Assembly (NCBI RefSeq): GCF_002072185.1
Contig: NZ_MVIW01000022.1
Span: forward strand, 1-53,547
Direction of reading: 5' to 3'
Length of the DNA stretch: 53,547 nucleotides
Origin: Actinomyces denticolens
GTDB taxonomy: Bacteria; Actinomycetota; Actinomycetes; Actinomycetales; Actinomycetaceae
Positions within the stretch are counted from its first letter, which is position 1; each line of letters begins with the position of its first letter. Shown one piece after another: positions 10,852 through 30,582 of this stretch. The position numbers were made by a program, and so were the translations under genes. The notes under the pieces are model-generated. The model worked only from the letters and a program-made list of their open reading frames with translations. It was not told where the DNA came from and searched no databases.

Positions 10852-12492
10852 TTATTCGCGAGTTTCCGCGCCGTCCAAGCGCCTCATGAGATAAGAGAGG
10901 ATGCTCAGGGCGTCAAGGCAGTCCTCGTATGTGAGGGCGCCGGTCCTGAGCAGTTCTGCCTGCTCCTCGTGATCGATGGTGTTCCGGAAGGCGCTGAGGA
11001 TACCGAGTGAGAGATTCTGTTGGCCCCGGTCGATGTTGTCGGCGGTCTGATCGGTGAAGCTGCCGTGTTTCATGTGACGGGAGAAGACTGAGAGCGGCCC
11101 GTCCTTCCCGAATGACTTGGAAAGGGTTCGATACGGGTCGTCCCGCGGAATTCCGGACTTCGTCGCTGTTGCGCCGACGTATCTCTTCACGGCTTCGTCG
11201 ACCGCATGAAAGTAGTCCTCCCGCTCGTAGAAGACGCGCGCTGCGTCCTGGATCTCAGGGTGCAGCCTGCGCCAGACCATCTCGGCGTAGGGGGGAGCGA
11301 GCCCCTCGAGGTCCTTCAGGATTCGGCCCTCTGCTGAGGAAGGGATGTCCAGGTCCTCTGACGTGATGTCCTCGATGACCCTCTGGAGCGCCTCCCTGTC
11401 CTTCGGTGAGCGGATCGTGCCAACCCACGCGTCGACTGGGCGTGTGAGCGTCATACTGCGCTGACGCTCGCGCAGCTCGCGGCGGCGCCCGCTCCATTCT
11501 CGTCCAATGCGCTTCAGAAGGATGGTCAGAGACGCGCGCAACTGCTCAGTGGTGTCATGATCCCATACCAAAGCGCGCCTGTCGGTTGCGATGACGTCCT
11601 CGTCTAGGGTGTCAATGAAATCCACGTCGAGGTATCCGGTGAGATATGAATATGCGTGGCTCGATTCGGCGCTGCCGAAGAACTCGGGCTCGTTGACCAT
11701 ACGTCCGTCGGCGTAGAGCGTGATGCCTCGCATCGCGCTTCGGAGCGGTTTCTCGGAGGATATGATGGTGCCCGTTACACCGTGTGAAGCGAGAAAGTCA
11801 TCGGCGACCGTGAAGTGAGCGGGGAAGGTCCACGTGAACTCGGTGTCAACGGTTGACATCCGGAGGCTGCTGTTGACGTCGATAGCAGCCCCGCTTGCAG
11901 GGATGATCTGTAGCCGAAAGTCACGATCTGCGTAGTTGAAGAGTCTTGCGAGGCTGGAGGCCAGGGATTTCGGATCAATTCTCGTTTTCCTTCGCAACGA
12001 CGTCAACGTCACAGTCGTTCCATGGGACGTGCTGTCGGTGACGCCGACCTCCTCGGCGGGGTGGTACTCGCCTTCAGTCTCCATGAGATCGTCGTATGAC
12101 ATGGTCACTCGCGTCACCTGCGGAGACCCGGCCCGGGTTGTCTCCAGTGAGACCACCCGTCCGATACCGAACAGGGAGAGTTTTCCGAGTCCCTTCTTGC
12201 CGGAGACCCGTCGCCTGCCGCTCTCGGTGAATGCCGCGGTTTCGGTTCGGCGTCTGTTGCGGCCGATGTGGAGATACTTCTCGGCGACATCCTCCCGAGA
12301 CATTCCGTGGCCGTCGTCGAAGACGGCGACTGATGCGTCGGCCCCGATCCGCACCTCGACGCGCGTCGCGTCAGCGTCGTAGGCGTTGGCGACGAGCTCG
12401 GCGATGGCGTTCGGCAGGTGGGAGTACATGCGCGCACCAAGATGGTCGACGGTCTGCGGGTCGAACCGCAGGGTCAGCGGGGCCTCGACCAT
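10852..12492 (-). CDS. GHKL (Hsp90/MutL/MORC-like) ATPase with C-terminal Ymh/HEPN domain
   Basis: 546 residues. The N-terminal GHKL ATPase is complete: N-box AIAELVANAYDADA (about 29-42), G1 DDGHGM (58-63) and lid GKKGLGKLSLFGIG (about 98-111). A middle S5-like region follows. The C-terminal 120 residues resemble the Hypoth_ymh (TIGR02391/PF09509) family, with LHPEIQDAARVFY and then FRNTIDHEEQ, which gives the HEPN RNase motif RxxxxH at R503 and H508. Start ATG has a strong AGGAGG site. It lies 165 bp downstream of the cytosine methylase gene on the same strand. I infer an ATP-gated effector of the defence island, possibly an RNase. Composition is less GC-biased than in housekeeping genes. 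Confidence 0.88.
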   Translation of the reverse strand: MVEAPLTLRFDPQTVDHLGARMYSHLPNAIAELVANAYDADATRVEVRIGADASVAVFDDGHGMSREDVAEKYLHIGRNRRRTETAAFTESGRRRVSGKKGLGKLSLFGIGRVVSLETTRAGSPQVTRVTMSYDDLMETEGEYHPAEEVGVTDSTSHGTTVTLTSLRRKTRIDPKSLASSLARLFNYADRDFRLQIIPASGAAIDVNSSLRMSTVDTEFTWTFPAHFTVADDFLASHGVTGTIISSEKPLRSAMRGITLYADGRMVNEPEFFGSAESSHAYSYLTGYLDVDFIDTLDEDVIATDRRALVWDHDTTEQLRASLTILLKRIGREWSGRRRELRERQRSMTLTRPVDAWVGTIRSPKDREALQRVIEDITSEDLDIPSSAEGRILKDLEGLAPPYAEMVWRRLHPEIQDAARVFYEREDYFHAVDEAVKRYVGATATKSGIPRDDPYRTLSKSFGKDGPLSVFSRHMKHGSFTDQTADNIDRGQQNLSLGILSAFRNTIDHEEQAELLRTGALTYEDCLDALSILSYLMRRLDGAETRE

Positions 12493-12657
12493 GTTCCTCC
12501 TCGGTGCGTGCGGTATGTTCAGGCGTCGCGTGGTGGATGACGTATGCGCATCACGGATCGTAACGCAGGAAGTTGGCGAGCGCGCCCGGAGGAGGCGCTG
12601 TCGCGATTGGGATGCGCTGTTCGGTGGTTGTTCGTCGCGCTTAAGAGGTACTCACGG
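12493..12657. other. Gap between cytosine methylase and GHKL-HEPN genes
   Basis: No gene is seen. On the minus strand a TACGAT hexamer at 12557-12562 could serve as a -10 for the GHKL-HEPN gene with a leader of about 58 nt, which would allow separate control from the methylase. The Shine-Dalgarno AGGAGG is close to the ATG. Confidence 0.4.
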
Positions 12658-13752
12658 TCAGAACTTGTCGAGGATCTGCCGGGCGACGGCGGCGCCCAGG
12701 GGGATGGGTACGGCGTTGCCGATCTGGCGGGCGATGGCGGTGCGCGAGCCGATGAAGCGGTGCGTCTCCGGGAAGCCCTGGAGGAGGGCCGCCTCGTAGT
12801 GGGTGATGGCGCGGTTCTCGATGGGGTGCAGGTATCGCCCCTTCTCCGGCTTGAAGAACTCCGTGCGGATGGTCACGGACGGCCTGTCCCAATGCAGGCG
12901 ACCCATGACGTCCATTGATCCGGTGGTGTGCTTGCGCCAGCAGGGCGCCTTGAGGTCATCCGGAAGGTTGGTCCGATTACCACCCTCGGGGATCGCCTTG
13001 AAGCGGTCCAGGGATTTGTCATCGTAGGTCCGCGAGACGTGCAGTTCCCGCCGCGAGAACGCCCCGGGAACATCCCGCGAGCCCACTCGCGTGCGGACCT
13101 CGCTGAAGCGCGCGTCCATATCGGGCTCCGCGGGCACACCCAGCAGCGCTTCGCGCACCGTTCTGTAGAGGGGGAGCCCGTCGGCCCCGTCCGGGCTGTG
13201 CGTGGGAGTCGGGAAGGCGGGGGCCGGTAGGTCCCGGTGGTGCCCGATGAGGACCGCGCGCTTGCGCGACTGCGGGGCGCCGTAGTCGGCGGAGTTGAGG
13301 ACGCGCAACTCGAAGGAGTAGTCCTCCAGGAACCCTCTGGGCTCCGTGGCGGCCTTGAAATCCCGGTATTGGGGGGACTTGCCGAAGGCCGGCACGTTCT
13401 CCACGACGAAGTACTTGGGCCCGGTCGCTACGAGGGTTGCCGCGTACTGCTCCCACAGCCGGTTGCGTGCATCCTCGGCGTCCCGCTTGCCCAGCGTGCT
13501 GAAGCCCTGGCACGGCGGCCCGCCGACGACGACGTCGATCCCGTCCGGCACCGCGCCGGCGGCCAGCCACTCCTGGATGGGGCCGGCGTAGACGTCCGTG
13601 CTCGGGAAGGTCGCCTGGTAGGAGGCGGCGGCGTAGGGGTCCATCTCGACTGCGGTGACGCTGTGGAAGCGCGATGACGCTGCGTGGAACCCCGCAGTGA
13701 GGCCGCCCGCCCCGGCGAAGAGGTCGAGGACGCGGATCGTTCTGGAACCCAT
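12658..13752 (-). CDS. DNA (cytosine-5) methyltransferase
   Basis: 364 residues with the ordered motifs of C5 methylases: motif I DLFAGAGGLTAGF (10-22), motif IV GGPPCQGFS with catalytic Cys81, motif VI ENV (118-120), motif VIII QSRKRAVLIG, and motif X QIGNAVPIPLG near the C terminus. It transfers methyl groups from AdoMet to cytosine in a short target; the specificity region between motifs VIII and IX does not reveal the target. The start has TAGCCT ending 6 nt upstream. It is divergent from the DUF1156 methylase, sharing a 148-bp control region. A Vsr repair nuclease gene at the far end of the island fits cytosine-5 methylation. Confidence 0.95.
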   Translation of the reverse strand: MGSRTIRVLDLFAGAGGLTAGFHAASSRFHSVTAVEMDPYAAASYQATFPSTDVYAGPIQEWLAAGAVPDGIDVVVGGPPCQGFSTLGKRDAEDARNRLWEQYAATLVATGPKYFVVENVPAFGKSPQYRDFKAATEPRGFLEDYSFELRVLNSADYGAPQSRKRAVLIGHHRDLPAPAFPTPTHSPDGADGLPLYRTVREALLGVPAEPDMDARFSEVRTRVGSRDVPGAFSRRELHVSRTYDDKSLDRFKAIPEGGNRTNLPDDLKAPCWRKHTTGSMDVMGRLHWDRPSVTIRTEFFKPEKGRYLHPIENRAITHYEAALLQGFPETHRFIGSRTAIARQIGNAVPIPLGAAVARQILDKF

Positions 13753-13758
13753 GGGATC

Positions 13759-13764
13759 AGGCTA
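13759..13764 (-). promoter_or_regulatory. -10 element of cytosine methylase gene (leaderless)
   Basis: TAGCCT on the minus strand ending 6 nt before the ATG. It lies in the divergent control region 13753-13900; a TAGAGT at 13837-13842 is a weaker -10 candidate for the opposite operon. Confidence 0.65.
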
Positions 13765-13900
13765 GCCGGCGCCACCGTCACCAATCCGAGGCGCACCGGC
13801 GGACGTGAAACTGTGATTCGTGTCGGAGGCCCGCCGTAGAGTGGGCCCAGTTCGCGACCGTGAGGAATCCCCACCCTCCCAGCCCGATGGAAGGACGCCC

Positions 13901-16723
13901 GTGCCCAGGAAGCTCATCGAGGTGGCGCTGCCCCTCGACGCGATCAACGCCCAGTCCGCCCGGGAGAAGTCCATCCGCAAGGGGCACCCCTCCACCCTGC
14001 ACCTGTGGTGGTCGCGCAAGCCCACGGCCACGGCCCGTGCCGTGCTCTTCTCCCAGCTGGTGGACGACCCCTCCGAGCGCTACGAGGAGTTCCGGGAGGC
14101 TGCCCGCGCGGCCGGGGACGCGGAGCCCGACGCTGCCGCGGAGCGGGCCGTGGAGGCCGAGCGACGCCGCCTGTTCACCCTCATCACCCGCATGGTGGAT
14201 TGGGACAACCTCACCGACGAGCACCTCATGCGCGAGGTGAGGGCGGAGATCCGCCGCTCGACGGGCGGCGAGCTTCCCGCCGTGCTCGACCCCTTCGCCG
14301 GTGGCGGTTCCATCCCGCTGGAGGCCCAGCGGCTCGGACTGGAGGCCCGCGCGTCGGATCTCAACCCCGTGGCCGTCCTCATCAACAAGGCGCTCATCGA
14401 GATCCCGCCGCGCTTCGCAAGCCGCGCCCCGGTCTTCCCGGAGGCCGACGACGGCACGCGCACATGGCCCGGCGCGCACGGCCTGGCCGAGGACGTGCGC
14501 CGCTACGGGCAGTGGATGCGCGAGGAGGCCTGGAAGCGCATCGGCCACCTCTACCCGGCGGCCGAACTGCCCGACGGGACGACGGCGACCGTCATCGCCT
14601 GGATCTGGGCGCGCACGGTCACCTGCCCGAACCCCGCCTGCGGCATCGAGACCCCGCTCGTGTCCAAGTGGTGGCTCGGCAAGAAGAAGGGCAAGGAGGC
14701 GTACATCGTCCCCACGATCGTCGGTGACCATGTCGAGTACTCCATCGGCCACGACCCCGCGCAGGCGCCGTCTTCCGGGACTGTCGCTGGCGGCAAGGGA
14801 CGGTGTCTCGCATGCAGCACGCTGATCGACAACGCCTGCATCCGCAGCCAGGCGACGTCCCGAGGGCTCGGGCAGCGGCTCATCGCGATCGCCGCTGAGG
14901 GCGGTCGGCGCCGGGAGTACCTTGCGCCCACCGCGGCCCATGCTGATACTGCGCTGGGTATTCCGCGTCCGACCGACGTTCCGATGCAGGAGGTGCCGAA
15001 GCGGAACCATGACGTCGACAGGTTGCCGATGTACGGCATGCCGACCTGGAGCGACGCGTTCACCTCGCGGCAGCTGACGGCGCTGACGACGTTCTCGGAC
15101 CTCGTGGGGGAGGCGCGCGAGCGGGTGCTGCGCGACGCGCTCGCCAACGGCATGGAGGAGGGGGAGCGTCTCGAGGCCGGTGGTGCCGGAGCCGCAGCCT
15201 ACGCCGACGCCGTGGCTACGTACCTGGGGTTCGCTGTGTCCAGGCTTACCGACTACTCGTCAGCGTTGAACACATGGGCGAATAATCCTCAAATGGAGAT
15301 CCTGCGCAATGTGTTCGCCCGACAAGCACTTCCGATGGCTTGGGATTTCGCTGAAGGCAATCCCTTCGCTAGTTCTTCGGGGAGCCTGTCAATCATGATC
15401 AAAGCTGTTTCTGAGGCAGTGAGTCGCACGCCTGCGAACGCCGCATCGTCCGTTCTTCAGGCCGATGCATCATCGCGTGACTACGCGAGCGCCGTCATCT
15501 CCACCGACCCTCCGTACTACGACAACATCGGCTACTCGGACCTGTCGGACTTCTTCTACGTGTGGCTGCGCCGCTCCCTCAAGGGCATCCATCCGTCCCT
15601 CTTCTCCACCATGCTCGTGCCCAAGGCCGAGGAGCTCGTCGCCAACCCCTACCGGCACGGCGGCAAGGACGGGGCGAAAGACTTCTTCGAGGACGGCTTC
15701 CGCGCCGTCTTCGCCCGTGCCCGCCAGGGCGCGAACCCCGACTACCCGATGACGGTCTACTACGCCTTCAAGCAGTCCGAGACCACCGCCGACGGCCGCA
15801 CCTCCACGGGCTGGTCCACCATCCTCGAGGGCATGATCGGCGCCGGCTGGACCATCACCGCCACCTGGCCCATGCGCTCCGAGCGCGGCGGCCGCATGAC
15901 CGGCGTCGGCACCAACGCCCTCGCCTCCTCCATCGTCCTCGTCCTGCGCCCCCGCCCCGAGGACGCCCCCATGACCGACCGCCGCAGCCTCATGCGCGAG
16001 CTGCGCCGCACTCTCCCGGACGCGGTTGAGACCCTGCGCAGCGGCGGCATCGCCCCCGTCGACCTCGCCCAGGCGGCCATCGGACCCGGCATGAGCGTCT
16101 TCTCCCGCTACGCCCGCGTCATCGGACCCGACGGCACGAACATGACCGTCTCCGAGGCCCTCACCCACATCAACACTGTCCTCGACGAGGTCCTCAGCGA
16201 GCAGGAGGGCGACCTCGACGCCGACACCCGCTGGTGCCTCACCTGGTACGACGCCCACGGCTTCACCGAGGGCCCCTACGGGGAGGCCGAGACCCTCGCC
16301 TCCGCCCGAAACGCCTCCATCGACGCCCTCAAGCGATCCGGCGTCCTCAACGCCGGCGGCGGCCGCGTCAGCCTCATCGCACCCTGCGATCTGCCCGACG
16401 GCTACGACCCCCGCACCGACGACCGCATCTCCCACTGGGAGGTCGTCCTCCACCTCGCCCGCACCCTGAAGGCTCGCGGCATCGACGATGCCGGGAGGAT
16501 CCTCGCCGGAGCCTCGCACCGCGGCCTGGAGATGGACGTCCTCCAGCCCCTCGCCTACCGCCTCTACTCGCTCGCCGAGAGGCACGGCCGGACGGAGGAC
16601 GGCCTCCTGTTCAACGACCTGGGCGGCTCCTGGCCCGAGATCGCCGCAGCCGCCCGCACCGGAACAGGCGCCGGCAGCGACGCCCAGACCGCACTCGACC
16701 TCGACACCCTGAAGGACGACTGA
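13901..16723 (+). CDS. DUF1156 (COG1743) DNA methyltransferase with Zn-ribbon
   Basis: 940 residues. The N terminus is the DUF1156 signature (RKLIEVALPLDAIN, then GHPSTLHLWWSRKP). AdoMet-binding motif I DPFAGGGSIPLEA starts at 130, a CPNPACG/CLAC Zn-ribbon lies near 245-310, and the amino-methylase motif DPPY is at 536-539. The family is annotated as adenine-specific methylase; N4-cytosine cannot be excluded from DPPY alone. I chose GTG 13901 with GGAAGGA upstream because family members begin close to RKLIEVALP; GTG 13820 would add 27 residues. First gene of a six-gene defence operon, 1 bp from the next. The part between motif I and DPPY has clearly different codon use from its flanks. Confidence 0.9.
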   Translation: MPRKLIEVALPLDAINAQSAREKSIRKGHPSTLHLWWSRKPTATARAVLFSQLVDDPSERYEEFREAARAAGDAEPDAAAERAVEAERRRLFTLITRMVDWDNLTDEHLMREVRAEIRRSTGGELPAVLDPFAGGGSIPLEAQRLGLEARASDLNPVAVLINKALIEIPPRFASRAPVFPEADDGTRTWPGAHGLAEDVRRYGQWMREEAWKRIGHLYPAAELPDGTTATVIAWIWARTVTCPNPACGIETPLVSKWWLGKKKGKEAYIVPTIVGDHVEYSIGHDPAQAPSSGTVAGGKGRCLACSTLIDNACIRSQATSRGLGQRLIAIAAEGGRRREYLAPTAAHADTALGIPRPTDVPMQEVPKRNHDVDRLPMYGMPTWSDAFTSRQLTALTTFSDLVGEARERVLRDALANGMEEGERLEAGGAGAAAYADAVATYLGFAVSRLTDYSSALNTWANNPQMEILRNVFARQALPMAWDFAEGNPFASSSGSLSIMIKAVSEAVSRTPANAASSVLQADASSRDYASAVISTDPPYYDNIGYSDLSDFFYVWLRRSLKGIHPSLFSTMLVPKAEELVANPYRHGGKDGAKDFFEDGFRAVFARARQGANPDYPMTVYYAFKQSETTADGRTSTGWSTILEGMIGAGWTITATWPMRSERGGRMTGVGTNALASSIVLVLRPRPEDAPMTDRRSLMRELRRTLPDAVETLRSGGIAPVDLAQAAIGPGMSVFSRYARVIGPDGTNMTVSEALTHINTVLDEVLSEQEGDLDADTRWCLTWYDAHGFTEGPYGEAETLASARNASIDALKRSGVLNAGGGRVSLIAPCDLPDGYDPRTDDRISHWEVVLHLARTLKARGIDDAGRILAGASHRGLEMDVLQPLAYRLYSLAERHGRTEDGLLFNDLGGSWPEIAAAARTGTGAGSDAQTALDLDTLKDD

Positions 16724-16724
16724 C

Positions 16725-19700
16725 ATGGCCACCATCTCCAACCGCGCCCGGATCGGCCGGGCCATCGAGATCGTCGCCGGCGCCCTGGAGCCCTGGATCG
16801 ACAGCGCCGTCAACCCGAGACTGCCCGCAGGCACCACCTGGATCGACCTCCTCGCCCGCAAGGACAATCACGCCGGCTGGACCTACGACCCCTCCGACCT
16901 CCAGTGCCAGCTGCGCGTCATCACCGAGCGCATGGGGGACCTGGGCTTCCTCTTCAGCGGGGTCCTGTCACGCGGGGAGCAGAACCTCGCCGGCGAGCTG
17001 CGCGACGTCCGCAACAAATGGGCGCACAACACCGCGTTCAGCGCCGACGACACGTACCGCGCCCTCGACACATCCGAGCGCCTGCTCCGCGCCATCAACG
17101 CCCCCGCCGAGGCCGACGCGATCGGCGCCATGCGGCGCGACACCCTGCGCTCCACCTACGACGCCGCCACCCGACGCGACACCCGGGCCACCGCCGTCGC
17201 CATGCCCGACCTCGGGGAGAAAGGACTCACCCCCTGGCGGGACGTCGTCCGCCCCCACCCCGACATCGTCTCCGGCGACTACGGCCAGGCCGAATACGCC
17301 GCAGACCTGCACCAGGTCGCCCATGGCAGGGGAGCCGATGAGTACGTCGACCCCGTCCGCTTCTTCGAGCGCACCTACCTCACCCAGGGCCTGCGGACAC
17401 TCCTGACCATGACCGCCCGACGCTTGGCTGGCGACCCCAACGCCCAGGCGGTCGTCAACCTCCAGACCACCTTCGGCGGCGGCAAGACCCACTCCATGCT
17501 GGCCGCCTGGCACCTCGCCGGCGGAACACCGCTCGAAGAACTCCCTCAGGACGTCCAGGACCTCCTCGCCGGTACCGGGGTCCCGACGAACGTCAGGAGG
17601 GTTGCCGTCGTCGGAAACGAGATCTCCCCCGGGCAGCCGAGTACCAAGCCCGACGGCACCGTCGTCCGCACCCTGTGGGGCGAGCTCGCCTGGCAGCTCG
17701 GCGGCCCCGAGGCCTACGCGACGATCGAGCAGGCCGACCGCACCGGCACCAACCCCGGTGCCGCACTGCGAGCCCTCATCGCTGATCACGCCCCCGCCCT
17801 CATCCTCATCGACGAGTGGGTCGCCTACGCGCGCGGCCTCTACGGGCGCGAGGGTCTCGTCGGCGGCAGCTTCGACACCCAGTTCACCTTCGCGCAGGAG
17901 CTCACCGCCGCCGTCCAGGGCGTTCCCGGAGCGCTCCTCCTCGTCTCCATCCCCGCCTCCGACATCCGGGGGGACGGCACCGTCCCCCGCGCCTCCGAGC
18001 TGGAGATCGGCGGAGACGGCGGCCGCGAGGCCCTCCGGCGGCTCCAGCACGTCGTCGCCCGCGTCGCCCACCACTGGAGCCCCGCCTCCTCCGGCGAGAG
18101 CTTCGAGATCGTGCGCCGGCGACTGTTCACCGACCTCGACGCGGAGGCCACGCGCAAGCGCGACGCCACCGTCAAACGGTTCGCCGACTACTACCGAGGG
18201 CAGCGCGGCGAACTCCCCTCCGACACCTTCCAGCCCGAGTACGAGCGCCGGCTGCGCGACGCCTACCCCATCCACCCCGAGCTCTTCGACAGGCTCTACG
18301 GCGACTGGTCCTCCCTGGAGCGCTTCCAGCGCACCCGCGGCGTCCTGCGCCTCATGAGCGCCGTCGTCCACTCGCTCGTCCAGGCCGGCGACGAAGCCCC
18401 ACTCATCATGCCCGGATCCATCCCCTTCGACGACGCCGCCGTGCGCGACGAGATCACGGGCTACCTCGACGACGCCTGGCGCACCATCATCGAGACCGAC
18501 GTCGACGGCGAGAACGCCACGCCCCTCGGCGTCGACCGCGACAGGCCACTGTTCGGAGGGCGCGCGCTCACCCGCCGCATCGCCCGCGCTCTGTTCCTCG
18601 GCTCCGCCGCCACCCTCGACACCGCCCACAAGGGCATCGACCGGCAGCGTCTCTTCCTCGGGGTGGCCATGCCCGGTGACACCCTCGGCAACTTCGGATC
18701 CTCCCTCCAGCTGCTCACCGACCGCGCCACCTACGTCTACACCCAGGGAACCCGCAGCTGGTACGACCGGCAGCCGTCACTCAACAGACTGGTCAGCGAC
18801 AGGGCGGCGTTCCTCGACCCCGCCGACGTCGCCGAGGCGGCCGTTGCCGTGCTACGCGGGATCGCCGGCCGGGCCCCCGAATTCACCGACGTCGTCATCG
18901 CACCGGCATCCACCTGGGACGTGCCCGACAAGGAGACTGCAACCCTCGTCATCCTCGGACCCGACCGCACTGTCGCAGCGAGGAACGGACGGGGCTCGCA
19001 ACTCACCGGCCCCGGCAGGGACTTCACCGAGGAGCTCCTGCACGAACGGGGCTCCGCACCGCGCAGCAATGTCAACACCCTCATCGCCATCGCCCCCGAC
19101 GAGAACCGCTGGGCGGACGCCGAGCAGGCGCTGCGCATCCACATGGCCTGGTCGCAGATGGCCGAGGACACGTCCATTCGCGACCACGACCTCACGGTCA
19201 GTCAGGCCGACCAGGCCAGGCGCAAGGCCCAGGAGACCCGGGGCCCCGCGGAGCACGCAGTGTCGGCCGCATGGATCTGGGCGCTCCACCCAGTCCAGGA
19301 TTACGGCTCGCAGCCCTTCGAGATCGAGGCCCTCAAGACCGACGGCGAGGAGCAGCGCATCGCCGTACGGGCCGGGCTCAGGCTCGGCAAGCAGGACATC
19401 GTCCTGACCACGCTCACCTCAACCGCCGTCGCGATGGAGCTCCAGGGAACGAACCTGCGCGCCAAATGGAACGAGGGGAGGATCACCGTCGGCGAGCTGT
19501 GGTCGTACTTCACCCGCTACCCCTACATGCCGCGCCTGCGGGACAAGCGAGTACTACTGGACGCCGTCGCCTCCGTTATGAACGACATCGGCTGGGAGAC
19601 CACCGGATTCGCCCTCGCCGCCGACTACGACGCCTCCCGCGGCGACTTCATCGACCTGCGCCTCCCCCTGGAGGACGAAGCGCCGGATATCGCCGACACC

Positions 19701-20138
19701 ACCCTCCTCGTCTCTCCGGCGCTCGCCCGTGCCCAGCGCAGCCGTGAGGAGGACACGCGATCCGCTGCGGCGAACGGCGCGGATGGATCCGCAACTGTCG
19801 ATCCCGGTGCGGAACCGGTGGTGTCGTCCGTTGTGAGCAAGGCCCGCGCGCCGAGGGGGGACGGACGAGTTCAGGTGCCGGCGACCGAGAAGCGCGTGGA
19901 GAACGCCAGGTTCAGGGGCACGTCCGAGCTCGACCCCGGACAGGACACCGCCGCGCAACTCGCGCAGCTCTCCGAGGAGATCATCGCCCACCTGCAAGCG
20001 GGCGGCCCCGACAGTCTCAGCATCGAGGTCACCATCGAGGCGAGTCGCTACGCCGGTTTCGATGCTCGTACTGTGCGCACCGTTACTGAGAACGCGCGCA
20101 CGCTCGGCCTCAAGCCGGGTCGATTCACGGAGGGATGA
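16725..20138 (+). CDS. DUF499 (COG1483) ATPase with N-terminal Swt1-type HEPN domain
   Basis: 1137 residues. Residues about 1-130 resemble the Swt1-family HEPN domain and contain RNKWAH, giving RxxxxH with R96 and H101. The DUF499 AAA-type core follows, with Walker A FGGGKTHS (about 250-257) and Walker B LILIDEW (D363, E364). The C terminus has a Ser/Ala-rich linker near 990-1060 and a small helical end. DUF499 ATPases are found beside DUF1156 methylases, as here, where the genes are 1 bp apart. The likely role is an ATP-driven partner of the methylase or restriction complex. The HEPN domain could be structural or a ribonuclease. Confidence 0.88.
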   Translation: MATISNRARIGRAIEIVAGALEPWIDSAVNPRLPAGTTWIDLLARKDNHAGWTYDPSDLQCQLRVITERMGDLGFLFSGVLSRGEQNLAGELRDVRNKWAHNTAFSADDTYRALDTSERLLRAINAPAEADAIGAMRRDTLRSTYDAATRRDTRATAVAMPDLGEKGLTPWRDVVRPHPDIVSGDYGQAEYAADLHQVAHGRGADEYVDPVRFFERTYLTQGLRTLLTMTARRLAGDPNAQAVVNLQTTFGGGKTHSMLAAWHLAGGTPLEELPQDVQDLLAGTGVPTNVRRVAVVGNEISPGQPSTKPDGTVVRTLWGELAWQLGGPEAYATIEQADRTGTNPGAALRALIADHAPALILIDEWVAYARGLYGREGLVGGSFDTQFTFAQELTAAVQGVPGALLLVSIPASDIRGDGTVPRASELEIGGDGGREALRRLQHVVARVAHHWSPASSGESFEIVRRRLFTDLDAEATRKRDATVKRFADYYRGQRGELPSDTFQPEYERRLRDAYPIHPELFDRLYGDWSSLERFQRTRGVLRLMSAVVHSLVQAGDEAPLIMPGSIPFDDAAVRDEITGYLDDAWRTIIETDVDGENATPLGVDRDRPLFGGRALTRRIARALFLGSAATLDTAHKGIDRQRLFLGVAMPGDTLGNFGSSLQLLTDRATYVYTQGTRSWYDRQPSLNRLVSDRAAFLDPADVAEAAVAVLRGIAGRAPEFTDVVIAPASTWDVPDKETATLVILGPDRTVAARNGRGSQLTGPGRDFTEELLHERGSAPRSNVNTLIAIAPDENRWADAEQALRIHMAWSQMAEDTSIRDHDLTVSQADQARRKAQETRGPAEHAVSAAWIWALHPVQDYGSQPFEIEALKTDGEEQRIAVRAGLRLGKQDIVLTTLTSTAVAMELQGTNLRAKWNEGRITVGELWSYFTRYPYMPRLRDKRVLLDAVASVMNDIGWETTGFALAADYDASRGDFIDLRLPLEDEAPDIADTTLLVSPALARAQRSREEDTRSAAANGADGSATVDPGAEPVVSSVVSKARAPRGDGRVQVPATEKRVENARFRGTSELDPGQDTAAQLAQLSEEIIAHLQAGGPDSLSIEVTIEASRYAGFDARTVRTVTENARTLGLKPGRFTEG

Positions 20139-20139
20139 C

Positions 20140-21648
20140 ATGGAGGCCATCACTGCGGTCTCGTCGAGAACCGTCCCGCCGGATCCATCGATCGCGGACG
20201 CCCTGGGAGCCCACCACGAGCTTCCAACGGCACTCGCCGATCTGGTTGACAACTCCATCGACGCCGGTGCGTCCCATGTGCGCATCCGCATCGTCACAGC
20301 CGACGACTTCGTCACCGGTCTGCTCGTCATCGACGACGGCCGTGGCATGGATGATACCGGCATTGATGACGCGATGACTCTGTCACGGCGCCGTGACTAC
20401 GGCGACACCGACCTCGGCCACTACGGGCTCGGACTCAAGGCGGCCTCCCTCAGCCAAGCCGATGTCCTCGACGTCTACACGCGCGCGGTCGGTGGCTCTC
20501 CCGCAGGACGCCGAATCACCCGCGCGGAACCGACGCGCGTGCAGACGCTCGACGCGGCGCAGGTCGGCCGGATTCTCAGCGGTCCGCTCATGGACACGGG
20601 CGGAGGCGCACACGCGGGCGGAACGGTCATTCGCTGGAGCGGATTTCGCAACGCTCTCACCTCCCCGGACAGGGATGAGAGACGATCGTGGATCAGCGGC
20701 CTCATCGAGAACACGCGCGACTATCTCGGACTCGTCTTCCACCGGATGATCGAAGGAGGCGATGTCGAGATCTCCGTCGACGAGTTCGACGACGAACGCG
20801 GAGAGGCGGGCGCGTCGCGGAAGGTGCGGTCACTCGACCCTCTGGCCCTGGCCGCCACCGCTGTGCACCCGCGCAGACTCGTCGGAGAGGTGGGATGGAC
20901 TCCCCTTGAGATGACCGCCGTCATACTCGCGGGCGGTACCCTCGACCTGCCCGGGATCAGGGCGTCCCGGCGGCTGTCGCAGGCGGAGGGAGGACAGGGC
21001 CTGTACGTCTATAGAGGCGACCGCCTCCTGCAGCTCGGCGGCTGGAACTCGGTCATCGAGGGCGGAAAGGACTATGCGAGCCTGCGCATCGCCATCGACA
21101 TCGACGATCGTCTGCTCGATGCGGTCCGCATCAACCCCGAGAAGAGCGGCGTCGTCCTGGAGCCGGAGATGCGTCGTGCGATTCACGACTCGGTGGGCGA
21201 GGATATCGGCACATTCGCGGACCTGCTCAGCGCCGCCCGCAACGCGTCCGTCGAGAGCCGCAAGCGGGAGAGACGCCCCATCAGGCTGGTTGAGCCCATG
21301 GGCGGCCTCGGCCGGAGCATCTACGACGTCATCGCGGACTCCGTGGAGTTCGCCGAGGCGGATCCCATCCGCATCCGATGGGAGCGCATGCCCACGAACC
21401 GCCTCGTCGAGGTCGACATTGAGCGGCGCATCCTCAGGATCAACAGTCACCACCGGGGCATGTTCTCCTCGAGTACCGACCCCGAGGACGCGCCCTTGCT
21501 GAAGAGTCTCGTGTATCTGCTCTACTCCCGCTTCTTCGAAGGCGCGTTCCTCGGTCCGCGGGAGAAGAGGGAGATCGAGGCGTACGAGCGGATCATCAAT
21601 TCGGCTCTCGCCGACGAGATTCAGCGCCGTGGATTGAATGAGGAGTAG
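20140..21648 (+). CDS. GHKL ATPase (MORC/Hsp90-like) of the restriction operon
   Basis: 502 residues. GHKL motifs: N-box ALADLVDNSIDAGA (about 31-44), G1 DDGRGMDD (about 67-74), and lid GHYGLGLKAASLSQ (about 89-102). No HEPN-like C terminus is seen, so it differs from the minus-strand GHKL protein. Such ATPases occur in restriction-modification loci beside Z1 and PD-(D/E)XK genes, and probably act as ATP-dependent DNA clamps. Start ATG, with GGAGGG upstream, is 1 bp after the DUF499 stop. The PD-(D/E)XK gene begins 6 bp downstream. Confidence 0.9.
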   Translation: MEAITAVSSRTVPPDPSIADALGAHHELPTALADLVDNSIDAGASHVRIRIVTADDFVTGLLVIDDGRGMDDTGIDDAMTLSRRRDYGDTDLGHYGLGLKAASLSQADVLDVYTRAVGGSPAGRRITRAEPTRVQTLDAAQVGRILSGPLMDTGGGAHAGGTVIRWSGFRNALTSPDRDERRSWISGLIENTRDYLGLVFHRMIEGGDVEISVDEFDDERGEAGASRKVRSLDPLALAATAVHPRRLVGEVGWTPLEMTAVILAGGTLDLPGIRASRRLSQAEGGQGLYVYRGDRLLQLGGWNSVIEGGKDYASLRIAIDIDDRLLDAVRINPEKSGVVLEPEMRRAIHDSVGEDIGTFADLLSAARNASVESRKRERRPIRLVEPMGGLGRSIYDVIADSVEFAEADPIRIRWERMPTNRLVEVDIERRILRINSHHRGMFSSSTDPEDAPLLKSLVYLLYSRFFEGAFLGPREKREIEAYERIINSALADEIQRRGLNEE

Positions 21649-21654
21649 AAGAAT

Positions 21655-22653
21655 ATGAATGAGTACACGGCGGGCGCTGCCGCGTTGACTCCTGAGACGC
21701 TCTCCGCCTATATCGACGCAGGCATCCCCACCGAGCAGCGCCTCGCGGACAGCCCGGTCTGCATTCTCGGCATCGACCCGCCGCGCCGCGAACTCACCCT
21801 GCGGACGCCGGCCACAGGCTCGGACATCGATGTCTCCGCCTACCGGATGATCCGCACCGACCTGTTCGAGGAACCGGGGGATGAGACCGTTTGGTTCCGC
21901 GTCACCGTCGATGCCGAGGGCGTCGAGTACGAGGCGTACTCGCTCCTCCAGTCGGTCTCCGACCAGCTCCAACAGGGCGATGACCTGGAACGCGCGCTGC
22001 ATGTCGCCCTCGGCGCCTACCGTGGGCTGCTGGCGCGCGCCCCGCGATTGAGCGAGGACCAGGAGATCGGATTGTTCGGGGAACTGGTCGCGCTCGATCG
22101 CCTCATCAGTGCGGTCGGCGAGAGACGAGCCCTGGCGGCCTGGTTGGGAACGCAGGCCGAGGAGCACGACTTCGTCCTCGCCGGCTACGACGTCGAGGTG
22201 AAGACGACCCGGAGCGAACGACGCATCCACGTCATCCACGGGCTCGGCCAGCTGGCTGCGACTCCGGGACGACCGCTCCTCCTCATGTCCATCCAGGTGA
22301 CGCGCGCCGGGGCATCAGTCGACGGTGAGACCCTGCCCGGAGTGATCGAGCACATCCGCAGGCGCCTACGAGCCGGACGCACGGCGTTCGATGACAAGCT
22401 CACCGACTTCGGCTGGGAGGACGCTCGTGCGGACAGGCTCTACACAACGGGCCTCCTCCTTCGCAGCGAACCGCGTTTCTACGTCGTTGACGATGCCTTC
22501 CCGGCACTCACCTCTGACGGGCTCGGCCGCGTTCTCGCCCGCCCCGAGCTCGTGAGAAGCATCGACTACCGCATCGACGTCACCGACCTCGAGCCGGAGG
22601 CGGTTCCGCCCATCGAGTTCAGTGCGACAGTAGAGGAGTGGCCGCACCCATGA
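21655..22653 (+). CDS. PD-(D/E)XK motif protein (DUF4420)
   Basis: 332 residues matching the DUF4420 'PD-(D/E)XK motif' family by pattern: GLFGELVALDRL, then EEHDFVLAGYDVEVKTT, which supplies D172 or D179, E181 and K183 as the predicted nuclease site. It is a probable DNA endonuclease of the restriction arm. The gene starts 6 bp after the GHKL gene and its stop overlaps the Z1 start (ATGA). In many genomes this family neighbours Z1, GHKL ATPase and Vsr genes. The cleavage target is unknown. Confidence 0.87.
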   Translation: MNEYTAGAAALTPETLSAYIDAGIPTEQRLADSPVCILGIDPPRRELTLRTPATGSDIDVSAYRMIRTDLFEEPGDETVWFRVTVDAEGVEYEAYSLLQSVSDQLQQGDDLERALHVALGAYRGLLARAPRLSEDQEIGLFGELVALDRLISAVGERRALAAWLGTQAEEHDFVLAGYDVEVKTTRSERRIHVIHGLGQLAATPGRPLLLMSIQVTRAGASVDGETLPGVIEHIRRRLRAGRTAFDDKLTDFGWEDARADRLYTTGLLLRSEPRFYVVDDAFPALTSDGLGRVLARPELVRSIDYRIDVTDLEPEAVPPIEFSATVEEWPHP

Positions 22654-25649
22654 GCATCGACCAGTACGACGAGGCCCTGGAGCAGGCCCTCAAGGGGATG
22701 AACGCTCCGAGGGATCTGCACCCCATCGTGTCGGTCTTCCTTCCGACCGGTGAGACGGTCGAACGGGAGGAGATCCAGGAGCTCATCCTGGGCGTCGACC
22801 GCAATGCCCCTGGACGGCGCAAGTTCCATATCCGCCTCAGCGAATGGGACGCCGAGGTCGACGCGGCATGGATCGAGGGAACCACGGCCCGCACGGCCGA
22901 GAGACGAGACCTCATCCTGCGTCTCCTGGGCCTGACTGATGACGCTGCCGCCCGTGTGTGCGAGACCTTCCCCGTCATCACCGACAGAACCACGGTCATC
23001 GCCGCCCCGGACTGGACTCCCTGGTACGACGAGGAGCGTCGGCGCGCCCACCACTTCTACTGGGACGGCTACCGCTCCCTCCTGGAGAGCAGGCTCCCGG
23101 CGGAATCGGTGGCCGACATCGACGCCGCCACCAACGACATCGTCGGTCGGCTGGCCGACCCCTCGGGACACGATGCGTACCAGTCGAAAGGCCTTGTCGT
23201 CGGGCACGTCCAAAGCGGCAAGACGGCCAACTTCACCGGTGTCATCGCCAAGGCGATCGACGCGGGCTACCGGCTCATCATCGTGCTGACCGGCACCGTC
23301 GAGATCCTTCGCTCCCAGACCCAGCGCAGGCTGGACATGGAGCTCATCGGGAAGGAGAACATCCTCGGAGGGATCAGTGAGGACGACACGGACCTCCTGG
23401 CCGAGGTCGACTACGTGAGCACCGATGACGCGGACTGGAGGAACGGGAAATTCGTCTCCTACGGACCCGGTTTCACGAATGCGGGAGTGCCGGAGATCAG
23501 ACGCCTGACCAGAGCGAAGGACGACTACAAATTGCTCAGAGCCGGCCTCGACGCGCTCGATCCGCGGGCGGGGCACGAGCTCAGCGATCCCGCCCGACCG
23601 ATGTGGCACCCGGACAACATTCACCGGACCGACGTGCGCATCGCCGTCGTCAAGAAGAACAAGGCCGTGCTGACCAAGCTCGTCAACGATCTGCGACGCA
23701 TCAAGGCTCGCACGGCGGAGATCCCCGCACTCATCATCGATGACGAGGCGGACCAGGCCTCCGTCAACACGATGAACCCGAAGCGCAGTGGTGATCGAAC
23801 GGCGATCAACAGGCTCATCGCCGACCTCATGAGTCGCCTCACCCGGGCGCAGTACGTCGGATACACGGCCACGCCCTTCGCCAACGTCTTCATCTCCCCG
23901 GAGGACGCCGAGGACATCTTCCCCCGTGATTTCATCGTCAGCCTGAGCGCTCCTCGGGAATACCGAGGTGGACGTGCCTATCACGACTTCGAGGAGCTGA
24001 CGGTTGAGGAGAAGAAGGACCCCGCCGTGTCGAACGAGTGCGCCTTCGTCCGCGACCTCAGGGGCGACGCCGCCGTCGACCCGGAACGGGTGGAGGAGGA
24101 ACTGCGAGGTGCCCTGGACGCCTTCGTGCTCACCGGAGCCATCAAGCTCTGGAGAGCAAAGGTTAGGCCCGAGATGGCCGGCCCCTTCCGTCACCACACG
24201 ATGCTCATTCACGAGTCGGTCAAGCAGTACGAGCATGCCGATCTGGCGCATCGGATCCGGCGACTGTGGCAACAGGCTGGGTACGGTTCGCCCGCTTCGA
24301 TGGAACGGTTGCGCAGGCTCTTCGACGAGGACTTCGCCGTGGTGTCCTCCGCCCGGCAATGGGAGGATGACCTTCCCAGGGCCGGGTCCTTCGACGATGT
24401 GGCCCCGCATGTTGGCGAGTCGCTCGACCTAGTCATGGCGGGTGGCGCGGATCCGGTCGTCGTCGTCAACGGCGATAAGGATCAGCAGTACAACCAGGTC
24501 GACTTCCAACGGGATAGGGTCTGGCGTGTCCTCGTCGGGGGAGCCAAGCTCAGCCGCGGGTTCACCCTCGAGGGCCTGACTATCAGCTACTTCAAGCGGC
24601 GGGCAGGTCAGGCCGACAGCCTCATGCAGATGGGGCGCTGGTTCGGGTACCGTCCTGGGTATTCCGACCTGGTGCGCCTCTACATAGCCAGGGAGATCAA
24701 GGGTCCTCGAGGCGTTGCCTACGACCTCTACGACGCTTTCGGCGCGATCATGCAGGACGAGGAGCAGTTCCGCGAGCAACTGGCGACCTTCGCCCGGATC
24801 GAGGAGGACGGCCGCCCTGCTCTCAAACCGATCGACGTCCCGCCGCTCGTCTTCCAGCAGTTGCCGTGGCTGCTCCCCACGGGGCGGAACAAGATGTACA
24901 ACGCCAAACTGGACTTCAGGGGCATCGGAGGAGCTCTTCAGGATTTCCCGCGACAGCCCGACCGTGGGGACGGCGGAACGAACGGGCGCCACTTCGCGCT
25001 CGTGCGTCCCTGGTTCGAACGCGGTCTCTTCGGTGAGCCGGAGGAGTTCGGGTACCGGGACCCGAACGGGAACAAGAGGCATTCATTCAAAGGACGAATC
25101 GCAGTCATCCCCGCCGAGGAAATGCTGGCGGTCCTGGAGCGCTTCGAGTGGATGAAGCAGTACGACTTCACCCCCACGTTGGAGATGATCCGCCGCGCGA
25201 TGGACGAGGGGAAGCTGGAGGACTGGGCCGTACTCCTTCCCCTGCTCGAGGGGGCGTCGGACAAGATAGTGGACGGGATCCCTCTCCCGATGCTCAAGCG
25301 GACCCGCCGCACCGACCGAGGTGGATTCTCCGGAAGTTCGTTCCGACAGCGCGGTGCCATCGAGACCATCGCGGGGAAGCCTCGCACCGGGGGCGAGCAG
25401 CCCTCAGGAGACGATGCGGCGCTGGCTTACCGAACTCCTACCCGCGGCGCGATGCTCCTCACCTTCGCCGCCGACCCGAAAGGAAATGCGGAGAGAGCTC
25501 CGGCACGCCTGCCGGCGGACATGAGCGCGGCGGACACCGCCACGATCTTCTCCCTGGCACTGCCCTACAAGGCCGCGCCCAGGGGCCGGATCGCCTTCAG
25601 TGTCAGGCGCAAGGACCGCAGTGATGACCCCGTCGTCGACGCCGACTGA
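22650..25649 (+). CDS. Z1 domain superfamily-II helicase-like protein
   Basis: 999 residues. Walker A GHVQSGKT at 185-192, a DDEAD Walker B at 364-368, then YVGYTATPFANVF, and in the C-terminal half LSRGFTLEGLT and QMGRWFGYR, the motif VI arginine region. This is the Z1-containing helicase-like family found in restriction loci with GHKL ATPases. I chose ATG 22650 (overlapping the upstream stop); GTG 22638 is an alternative and would add four residues. Likely role: ATP-driven DNA translocation or remodelling for the nuclease partners. Confidence 0.9.
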   Translation: MSIDQYDEALEQALKGMNAPRDLHPIVSVFLPTGETVEREEIQELILGVDRNAPGRRKFHIRLSEWDAEVDAAWIEGTTARTAERRDLILRLLGLTDDAAARVCETFPVITDRTTVIAAPDWTPWYDEERRRAHHFYWDGYRSLLESRLPAESVADIDAATNDIVGRLADPSGHDAYQSKGLVVGHVQSGKTANFTGVIAKAIDAGYRLIIVLTGTVEILRSQTQRRLDMELIGKENILGGISEDDTDLLAEVDYVSTDDADWRNGKFVSYGPGFTNAGVPEIRRLTRAKDDYKLLRAGLDALDPRAGHELSDPARPMWHPDNIHRTDVRIAVVKKNKAVLTKLVNDLRRIKARTAEIPALIIDDEADQASVNTMNPKRSGDRTAINRLIADLMSRLTRAQYVGYTATPFANVFISPEDAEDIFPRDFIVSLSAPREYRGGRAYHDFEELTVEEKKDPAVSNECAFVRDLRGDAAVDPERVEEELRGALDAFVLTGAIKLWRAKVRPEMAGPFRHHTMLIHESVKQYEHADLAHRIRRLWQQAGYGSPASMERLRRLFDEDFAVVSSARQWEDDLPRAGSFDDVAPHVGESLDLVMAGGADPVVVVNGDKDQQYNQVDFQRDRVWRVLVGGAKLSRGFTLEGLTISYFKRRAGQADSLMQMGRWFGYRPGYSDLVRLYIAREIKGPRGVAYDLYDAFGAIMQDEEQFREQLATFARIEEDGRPALKPIDVPPLVFQQLPWLLPTGRNKMYNAKLDFRGIGGALQDFPRQPDRGDGGTNGRHFALVRPWFERGLFGEPEEFGYRDPNGNKRHSFKGRIAVIPAEEMLAVLERFEWMKQYDFTPTLEMIRRAMDEGKLEDWAVLLPLLEGASDKIVDGIPLPMLKRTRRTDRGGFSGSSFRQRGAIETIAGKPRTGGEQPSGDDAALAYRTPTRGAMLLTFAADPKGNAERAPARLPADMSAADTATIFSLALPYKAAPRGRIAFSVRRKDRSDDPVVDAD

Positions 25650-26130
25650 ACCCGGGCGGCCGGCTGGGCCGGATCCTGGGGGAGAGCCGGAGGCCCGGAC
25701 GGGAGCCGAGTGGGCTGCGGTCTCCTGGGCGTCGTCGCCCGGCGTGGCCAGATCGATGCGCTCGAACAGGCGCAGGGACACGCGCCCGGAACTCGCGATT
25801 CGCCGCTTGCTGCACGCCCACGGCCTGCGCTACCGGGTGGACATGGCGCCATGGAGCAATAAGCGACGGCGCGCGGACATCGTGTTCACGCGCCAGCGCC
25901 TCGCCGTCTTCATCGATGGCTGCTTCTGGCACGGCTGCCCCGAGCACGCGACCACGCCGGCGACGAACACCGACTACTGGCGCCCCAAGCTCGCCAGGAA
26001 CATCGAACGCGACCGCGAGACCACTGCGATGGCCGAGGCGGAGGGATGGAGGGTGCTGCGCATCTGGGAGCACGTCCCTCCGGAGGAGGCCGTGGCGCTC
26101 ATCCTCAAGGCGCGGAAGGAGGGGCCATGA
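25624..26130 (+). CDS. vsr: Very short patch repair (Vsr) endonuclease
   Basis: 168 residues. The Vsr core is clear: RSNRRRDTRPELAIRRLLHAHG, then RRRADIVFTRQ with the predicted catalytic D85, and the zinc/active-site segment FIDGCFWHGCPEH, then NTDYWRPKLARN. Vsr nicks beside T:G mismatches formed by deamination of 5-methylcytosine, which suits the cytosine methylase in the same island. In Z1 loci Vsr-like proteins may serve restriction instead. The first 45 residues are a poorly conserved extension; ATG 25624 overlaps the Z1 gene by 26 bp, and a later start near residue 53 is possible. Confidence 0.9.
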   Translation: MTPSSTPTEPGRPAGPDPGGEPEARTGAEWAAVSWASSPGVARSMRSNRRRDTRPELAIRRLLHAHGLRYRVDMAPWSNKRRRADIVFTRQRLAVFIDGCFWHGCPEHATTPATNTDYWRPKLARNIERDRETTAMAEAEGWRVLRIWEHVPPEEAVALILKARKEGP

Positions 26131-26222: not shown

Positions 26223-26296
26223 TGGAGCGGATGACGGGAATCGAACCCGCGCTATCAGCTTGGGAAGCTGAGGTTCTACCATTGAACTACATCCGC
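26223..26296 (-). tRNA. tRNA-Gly (anticodon CCC)
   Basis: Cloverleaf on the minus strand: acceptor GCGGATG pairs with CATCCGC, the anticodon stem TCAGC/GCTGA encloses the loop TTCCCAA (anticodon CCC, reading GGG), the T arm contains GGTTCGATTCC, and the CCA end is encoded. It forms the right boundary of the defence island, 92 bp past vsr and convergent with it. Confidence 0.95.
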
Positions 26297-26423
26297 AGAT
26301 GCCCACAACGAGGTGCGCGAAGACAGCATACCCCACCACGGCGCGCATGTGGAATCGCCGGGCCCGGAGGCCGGGCCCGGCGCCCAGGCGGGCGACCGGT
26401 ACCCTGGCGGCCGCTGCGCCTGG

Positions 26424-26429
26424 CACAAT
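26424..26429 (+). promoter_or_regulatory. -10 element of dcd (leaderless)
   Basis: CACAAT ending 6 nt before the GTG start at 26436, the same hexamer and spacing as the M50-like gene at 7667. Confidence 0.6.
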
Positions 26430-26435
26430 CGTCCC

Positions 26436-27044
26436 GTGCTCCTCTCCGACCGTGACATCCGCGCCCAGCTCGACGCCGGCCGCGTGGTCCTCGACCCCTG
26501 CGACCCGGAGCTGATCCAGCCCGCATCCATCGACGTCCGGCTGGATCGCTCGTTCCGGCTCTTCGACAACCACCGCTACCCGGTCATCGACCCTGCCATC
26601 GAGCAGGACGGGCTCACCCACCTCATCGACGTCGGCCCCGACGAGCCCTTCGTGCTGCACCCCGGCGAGTTCGTCCTGGGCGCCACCTATGAGCGCGTCA
26701 CCCTGCCCGACGACGTCGCCGCCCGCCTGGAGGGCAAGTCCAGCCTCGGGAGGCTCGGACTGCTCACGCACTCCACCGCCGGCTTCATCGACCCCGGCTT
26801 CACCGGCCACGTCACCCTGGAGCTGAGCAACACGGCCACCATGCCGATCAAGCTCTGGCCCGGGATGAAGATCGGCCAGCTCTGCTTCTTCCGACTGTCC
26901 AGCCCCGCCGAGGCCCCCTACGGCTCGGGCGCGCGCGGCTCGCGCTACCAGGGGCAGCGCGGTCCCACGGCCTCCCGCTCGCACCTGAGCTTCGACCGCC
27001 TGCGCATCGAGGACGCCGGCCTTCCCGCCGAGGAGTCCGAATGA
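26436..27044 (+). CDS. dcd: dCTP deaminase
   Basis: 202 residues. Family motifs: [10 protein letters not shown], the catalytic stretch [13 protein letters not shown] with [19 protein letters not shown] (Glu as general acid/base), and [14 protein letters not shown] near the C terminus, which closes over the nucleotide. It deaminates dCTP in dTTP synthesis. Actinobacterial members are often bifunctional and release dUMP directly; the sequence resembles that type, but I cannot decide it. GTG start chosen from the leaderless promoter. The next gene overlaps by 4 bp. Confidence 0.94.
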
Positions 27045-28362: not shown

Positions 28363-30582
28363 ATGAGAACTCATCACCCCCGTATCCCAGCGATCCTGGG
28401 AGCCGGTGCCATCGCGCTCACCGGACTCACCATCGCCCCGACGGCGCAGGCGGCCAAGACCGCTGATGGCCTCATGGACGTCGTCATCACCCAGGCCGCA
28501 GATGCCAACGGCGGCGTCTACGCCGTCGGAAGCACTCTTACCTTCGACATCAAGGTCACTAACCTGAGTGCCGAGGCCCGCTCCTTCGAGGTCGCCAAGA
28601 CCAATCTCGGAGGTCGGGTCACCGCCTGCAAGTGGCGCAACATCGCCGCTAAGGCCACCAAGACCGACTGCATGGGCTACGCCACCCACACCATCACCCA
28701 GGCCGATCTCGATGCGGGCTCCTTCACCCCGGAGATCTCCTACACTGTCCGCGCTCCCGAGTACAAGGGTGATGCCCTCAATACCCCGGAGACCGTCCGC
28801 GGCGCCGCCGTGCCGATCAAGGCGGCCCCTCCCGGACAGGATGCGCCCAAGGGCCCGCAGGAGCCCGAGGAGGAGAAGGGCGACTTCCCCAAGGCCGAGC
28901 CCGCGCCCCTCCCGGACGCCTCGGTGTCGCTGCCCGCCTCGATGAGCGATGGCACCGCGGTGGCCACGGGCACCGCCACGGATAATGTCCGCATCCCCGC
29001 GATCACCACCGCGCCCAACGGAGACCTCCTCGTGGCCTATGACGTCCGGCCCACGGACAATGGCAATAAGGGTGGCGACTCACCCAACCCGAACCACATC
29101 GTCCAGCGCCGTTCCACCGACGGCGGTAAGACCTGGGGTGCGCCCACCTACATCCACAAGGGCATTGAGACCGGGGCCAAGGAGGGTTACTCAGACCCCT
29201 CCTACGTCGTCGACTCGGCCACGGGCGCGATCTTCAACTTCCACGTGAAGTCCTTCGACGCCGGCTGGCCCACATCCAGGGCAGGCTCTGACCCCGCAGA
29301 CCGCGGCGTCATCCAGGCCGAGGTCTCCACCTCCACGGACAACGGCCACACCTGGACCCACCGCGTCATCACCCCGGACATCACGAACGATCCCTCATGG
29401 ATCGCCCGCTTCGCCGCCTCCGGCCAGGGCATTCAGATCCAGAACGGCGAGCACAAGGGGCGCCTCGTCCAGCAGTTCACCATCAAGCTCGCCAATGGAA
29501 CTATCCGGGCCGTCTCCGTCTACTCCGACGACCACGGCGCCACCTGGAAGGCCGGAACCCCGGCCGGCACCGGAATGGATGAGAACAAGGTCGTCGAGCT
29601 CTCCGACGGTCGGCTCATGATGAACTCGCGCGTTTCCGATGGAAGCGGCTTCCGCAAGGTGGCCACCTCCACCGACGGCGGTCAGACATGGTCAGAGCCG
29701 GTCTCGGACAAGAACCTCCCGGACTCGGTGGATAACGCCCAGATCATCCGCGCCTTCCCCAATGCCGCCCCGGGCACGGAGCGCGCCAAGGTCCTCCTCC
29801 TCAGCCACTCGCCGAACCCCAAGGCGTGGTCCCGCGACCGTGGCACGATCTCACTGTCCTGCGACGACGGTGCTACGTGGACGGGCAAGGTCTTCCGCGC
29901 CGAGCGTGTCGGCTACACGACGCTGGCCGTGCAGTCCGACGGCTCGCTGGGAGTCCTCAGCGAGGATGGGAACGACCGGCAGATCGCCTACCGCAACTTC
30001 TCCCTGGCCTGGCTGGGCAGCGACTGCCCCGCCCTCAAGGACGCCCCGAGCCCGGAGCCGAAGCCCGAGGAGCCCCCTGCCCCCGCCCCGAAGGCTGGTT
30101 GGGAGAAGGATGGTGGTAATTGGCGTTACCGCAATGCTGATGGCGGTCTGGCCACCGGTTGGCTCAAAGATGGTGCGTCCTGGTACTACCTGCGCTCCGA
30201 TGGGACGATGGCCACGGGGTGGGTCAAGGACGGCGGTGCCTGGTACGCCTTGAAGGACGATGGCGCGATGCGCACCGGCTGGTTCAAGGATGGCGGTGCC
30301 TGGTATCTGCTGCGGGACAACGGTGCCATGGCCACCGGTTGGGCCAAGGATGGTGGGAAGTGGTACCACTTCGCCGACAGTGGGGCGATGACCACTGGTT
30401 GGATCCGCCTGGCCGGTACCTGGTACCACTTGGGCGCCAGTGGGGCTATGACCACGGGGTGGCTCCAGGACGGTGGCTCCTGGTACTACCTGCGGGCCAA
30501 TGGTGCCATGGCCACGGGTTGGGTGACGGTTGGTCCGAGCCGTTACTACATGGATCCCTCCACGGGGGTCTGGCGGGGCTGA
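28363..30582 (+). CDS. nanH: Secreted exo-alpha-sialidase (GH33) with GW-type cell-wall-binding repeats
   Basis: 739 residues. A signal peptide ends near AQA (about residue 33). A beta-rich domain (about 40-150) and an acidic Pro linker lead to the six-bladed sialidase domain (about 185-560), with RIP at R210 and five Asp boxes (RSTDGGKTW, STDNGHTW, SDDHGATW, STDGGQTW, SCDDGATW). The C terminus (from about 579) is eight 20-residue repeats of the type GWLKDGASWYYLRSDGTMAT, resembling CW_binding_1/choline-binding repeats; no LPXTG is present. It releases terminal sialic acid from host glycoproteins, probably while attached to the cell surface. No strong ribosome site precedes the ATG. Two palindromes upstream suggest tight control. 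Confidence 0.93.
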   Translation: MRTHHPRIPAILGAGAIALTGLTIAPTAQAAKTADGLMDVVITQAADANGGVYAVGSTLTFDIKVTNLSAEARSFEVAKTNLGGRVTACKWRNIAAKATKTDCMGYATHTITQADLDAGSFTPEISYTVRAPEYKGDALNTPETVRGAAVPIKAAPPGQDAPKGPQEPEEEKGDFPKAEPAPLPDASVSLPASMSDGTAVATGTATDNVRIPAITTAPNGDLLVAYDVRPTDNGNKGGDSPNPNHIVQRRSTDGGKTWGAPTYIHKGIETGAKEGYSDPSYVVDSATGAIFNFHVKSFDAGWPTSRAGSDPADRGVIQAEVSTSTDNGHTWTHRVITPDITNDPSWIARFAASGQGIQIQNGEHKGRLVQQFTIKLANGTIRAVSVYSDDHGATWKAGTPAGTGMDENKVVELSDGRLMMNSRVSDGSGFRKVATSTDGGQTWSEPVSDKNLPDSVDNAQIIRAFPNAAPGTERAKVLLLSHSPNPKAWSRDRGTISLSCDDGATWTGKVFRAERVGYTTLAVQSDGSLGVLSEDGNDRQIAYRNFSLAWLGSDCPALKDAPSPEPKPEEPPAPAPKAGWEKDGGNWRYRNADGGLATGWLKDGASWYYLRSDGTMATGWVKDGGAWYALKDDGAMRTGWFKDGGAWYLLRDNGAMATGWAKDGGKWYHFADSGAMTTGWIRLAGTWYHLGASGAMTTGWLQDGGSWYYLRANGAMATGWVTVGPSRYYMDPSTGVWRG
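30097..30579 (+). repeat. Eight tandem 60-bp coding repeats
   Basis: They encode the GW-type repeats of the sialidase. Units share long blocks such as GGCGGTGCCTGGTA and use more GGT/GAT codons than the catalytic part, so the array may expand or contract by recombination. Confidence 0.85.

Follow-up and report, generated by a model that had tools for sequence, protein, structure and literature searches.

The window analysed here, the whole 53,547-nucleotide contig NZ_MVIW01000022.1 of Actinomyces denticolens, carries at 10852..26130 a cluster of defence genes that looks like a hybrid, in which HmaB and HmaC (HmaBC), the DNA-marking half of the Hma system, are joined to a predicted effector that resembles the DNA-cutting half of another known system. 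Homologues of MzaB, MzaD and MzaC, here called the trio, lie in one operon of the window, and we refer to loci with HmaBC and the trio as hybrids and to those with the Hma helicase HmaA as HmaA-type. The effector seems to have been swapped once, long ago, in actinobacteria, which suggests that defences of this kind are made of interchangeable parts.

HmaB and HmaC without HmaA

The eight proteins of the locus were searched with PADLOC and NCBIfam models and with domain models such as DUF1156, DUF499 and PF09509. HmaB (13820..16723, plus strand, 967 aa) is a DUF1156 DNA methyltransferase that scores 1098 bits against the PADLOC HmaB model and is read as a putative N6-adenine methyltransferase. 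It is followed by HmaC (16725..20138, plus strand, 1137 aa), which joins an N-terminal Swt1-like HEPN domain (HEPN_Swt1, aa 12-125, 16758..17099, plus strand, RxxxxH intact) to a DUF499, BrxC-like AAA+ ATPase and scores 825 bits over aa 168-1134 in PADLOC. The sequence-only reading of this DNA had taken DUF1156 and DUF499 for a known defence pair.

The Hma system was named in PMC8565338 and renamed Type-1 BREX-related (BR) in PMC12839542, and its third core gene as described there, hmaA, codes for an SNF2 helicase with, in most cases, a PD-(D/E)XK tail. HmaA was found in 0 of 17 hybrid loci and 0 of 8 hybrid genomes. The possibility that it is encoded elsewhere in the window genome was rejected, since the HmaA profile gave only partial helicase-core matches of 97 and 79 bits there; three HmaA-type genomes within the genus score 1282-1308 bits.

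Many HmaA-type loci (several among L013-L081) have additional genes, whose families were scanned by one representative each: a GmrSD-like gene beside or between HmaB and HmaC (F8 and F13), an extra SNF2 helicase (F9), or members of a family without a Pfam match (F10); F8 and F10 also occur near hybrid L018, and F10 near L022.

The trio as predicted effector

Directly downstream of HmaC, the MzaB-like gene codes for a GHKL (paraMORC-type) ATPase of about 502 aa (20140..21648, plus strand, HATPase_c_3); its open reading frame opens at 20062, and 20140 is the likely start judging from the starts of relatives and from spacing. The MzaD-like gene (21655..22653, plus strand, 332 aa) codes for a DUF4420 PD-(D/E)XK protein, and the operon gene between it and the Vsr gene occupies 22638..25649 on the plus strand. 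The core genes of the hybrid co-diverge tightly. When L003 is compared with L002, L182 and L184, Dcm, HmaC and most of HmaB are nearly identical and divergence jumps near the border of HmaC and the GHKL gene, so that the trio seems, from these alignments, to be exchanged as one unit.

Sigma-70-like sequences also occur at hybrid loci. A GHKL ATPase-sigma-70-like fusion lies between Dcm and HmaB in L004 (4391-7045, minus strand), with an MzaA-like C-terminus (166 bits; profiles were run on this copy only), and a homologue holds the same position in L005 (4456-7032, minus strand). In L007 and L010, sigma-70 region-4 proteins are encoded next to the core genes of the hybrid.

Exchange of the putative specificity block of HmaB

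HmaB residues ~315-560 (14762..15499, plus strand), between methylase motif I (157) and motif IV (563), form a hypervariable block read as the target-recognition domain (TRD). Between L002 and L003, two 400-nt windows of HmaB have nucleotide identities of 0.61 and 0.57, the window after them 0.84, and the remainder of the gene 0.95-0.99. All five close pairs of the genus that were measured (L002/L003, L182/L003, L184/L003, L182/L002 and L182/L184) have one or both block windows at 0.57-0.66, and the other HmaB windows and HmaC at 0.84-0.99. Trees of HmaB need 2 changes between hybrid and HmaA-type when built from the core, whereas the centre requires 9, of which at least 7 are forced: TRD blocks have moved between the two kinds of system; L008 and L050, for instance, share 85% identity in aa 440-560 and 60% in the core.

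The methylase of BREX is described as its specificity factor (PMC11341690). If HmaB has that role here, then the effector would not carry the sequence reading, because it changed while TRDs stayed exchangeable. This is our main inference, and it holds only if HmaB and the trio work together.

A candidate invertible specificity switch is present in G425, a single-contig genome whose locus L185 (11032-17220) contains two divergent full-length hmaB genes with differing TRDs, the second in the slot that Dcm holds in relatives. Compared in blocks of 40 residues, the copies are identical over aa 1-280 and 721-960 and fall to 21-34% where they vary most. They contain inverted repeats of 887 and 833 nt that are 99% identical, so inversion could take place, and none was seen in this genome. 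In BREX, pglX is known to be phase-variable (PMC11341690, PMC7513527).

Accessory genes and borders of the locus

The remaining genes are accessory. A divergent C5-cytosine DNA methyltransferase (Dcm-like; 12658..13752, minus strand, DNA_methylase 192 bits) and a Vsr-family endonuclease that ends the operon (25624..26130, plus strand, TIGR00632 128 bits, above cut-off) are frequent, and a 546-aa protein with a BbrUII/HgiDII-like GHKL N-terminus and a C-terminal Ymh HEPN domain (GHKL-Ymh; 10852..12492, minus strand; HEPN at aa 408-539, 10876..11271, minus strand, PF09509 60 bits) is rare. In the flanks that were fetched, Dcm was found at 14 of 17 hybrids and Vsr at 12 of 17, versus 0 of 42 HmaA-type loci for either; none was detected for Dcm at hybrids L010 and L011. 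Dcm tracks the core weakly (r 0.21-0.39 over 13 loci, values equalled or exceeded by between 0 and 175 of 2000 permutations).

A tRNA-Gly(CCC) gene (26223..26296, minus strand) forms the right border. As a shared integration site it was rejected: a scan of 6 relatives from the genus gave no tRNA, and of 14 more hybrids 4 had tRNAs, all of them different ones. A dCTP deaminase gene (26313-27044) adjoins the tRNA, and a sialidase-like (BNR) protein with choline-binding repeats is encoded beside the locus (28363-30582, plus strand).

Alternative explanations

The sequence-only reading had described an eight-gene locus uniting a DUF1156-DUF499 module with a Dcm-GHKL-PD(D/E)XK-Z1-Vsr module, and as an observation this is correct: all eight genes stand in order in the window, and likewise in G417 except that GHKL-Ymh is interrupted there by a transposase-like insert, identified by eye (L180, 3399-4319, reverse orientation). 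The joining of the two modules recurs in hybrids as HmaBC with the trio; the eight genes as a unit do not. Of 7 genus hybrids, 5 showed no GHKL-Ymh in the flanks that were fetched, and one of the two carriers has the gene split; Dcm and Vsr vary in place and presence. Homologues of GHKL-Ymh occur in L005 (43%), in L117 (chiefly the C-terminal part) and as a fragment in L008. L117 does combine its homologue with Dcm, Vsr and the trio, but a single layered system, with GHKL-Ymh as RNA-level back-up to the other seven genes, is very unlikely.

We consider it very unlikely that HmaBC is a remnant that, after loss of HmaA, is being lost in turn or does no more than mark DNA. In its favour, the HmaB frame is broken in G426, a decayed hybrid, and L113 and L117 have secondarily lost HmaBC and kept the trio. 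However, the HmaB motifs DPFAGGG and DPPY and the HmaC Walker A and B motifs are intact in 18 of 18 hybrids, dN/dS of the two genes is 0.057-0.353, TRD exchange continues, and a broken HmaB frame is also found in the HmaA-type genome G427.

Several points weigh against an effector swap in a working HmaBC system. The 17 hybrid and 42 HmaA-type loci come from one clade, so their split reflects a single event observed repeatedly and does not amount to 17 tests. The trio occurs without HmaBC in L118, L119 and L121 as well as after the losses in L113 and L117, and one genome has the trio deleted with HmaC still open and the HmaB frame broken. The HmaB trees are not clean, PMC8565338 predicts m5C rather than N6-adenine for HmaB, and no biochemical or phage data on the hybrid were found.

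Comparison with known systems

The window shares with Hma (Type-1 BR) the DUF1156 methylase HmaB and the HEPN-fused DUF499 protein HmaC, and lacks, in locus and genome, the SWI2/SNF2 helicase HmaA with its C-terminal PD-(D/E)XK domain. The eight proteins gave no match at E 0.001 to DUF3780, which marks Type-2 BR, or to PglZ, which together with iSTAND marks Type-3 BR. BREX Type 1 is similar as a BrxC ATPase system whose specificity subunit is the methylase, but no PglZ, BrxA, BrxB or BrxL match was obtained among the eight. CglI and NgoAVII, as described in PMC4267653, are three-gene systems with a PLD-B3 nuclease and a C5 methylase, and neither a GHKL nor a BrxC-like ATPase is among the three genes given there. 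GHKL-Ymh reaches 211 bits, over its N-terminal part only, against the BbrUII/HgiDII model (NF050001, cut-off 550 bits); its architecture is that of the paraMORC-Ymh HEPN proteins of restriction-modification neighbourhoods, for which the available text of PMC3710099 describes no adjacency to HmaBC.

Two further comparisons concern the trio. The paraMORC restriction-modification operons of Iyer, Abhiman and Aravind (2008, PMC2292703) combine a GHKL ATPase, a superfamily 2 helicase and a protein of restriction-endonuclease fold, often with a C5 methylase and Vsr, and their helicase motif DThhQXuRhFG is matched in the window by DSLMQMGRWFG; DUF1156 and DUF499 are not among the parts in the available description. 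As for the MZA system (mzaABCDE; PMC9523054), the scores stay far below the NCBIfam equivalog cut-offs (55 and 79 bits to MzaB models, against 850; 289 against 1500 for MzaC; 80 against 420 for MzaD), none of the eight proteins matches MzaA (sigma-like) or MzaE (AIPR), and, compared with MZA as described there, the trio of the window is joined to HmaBC.
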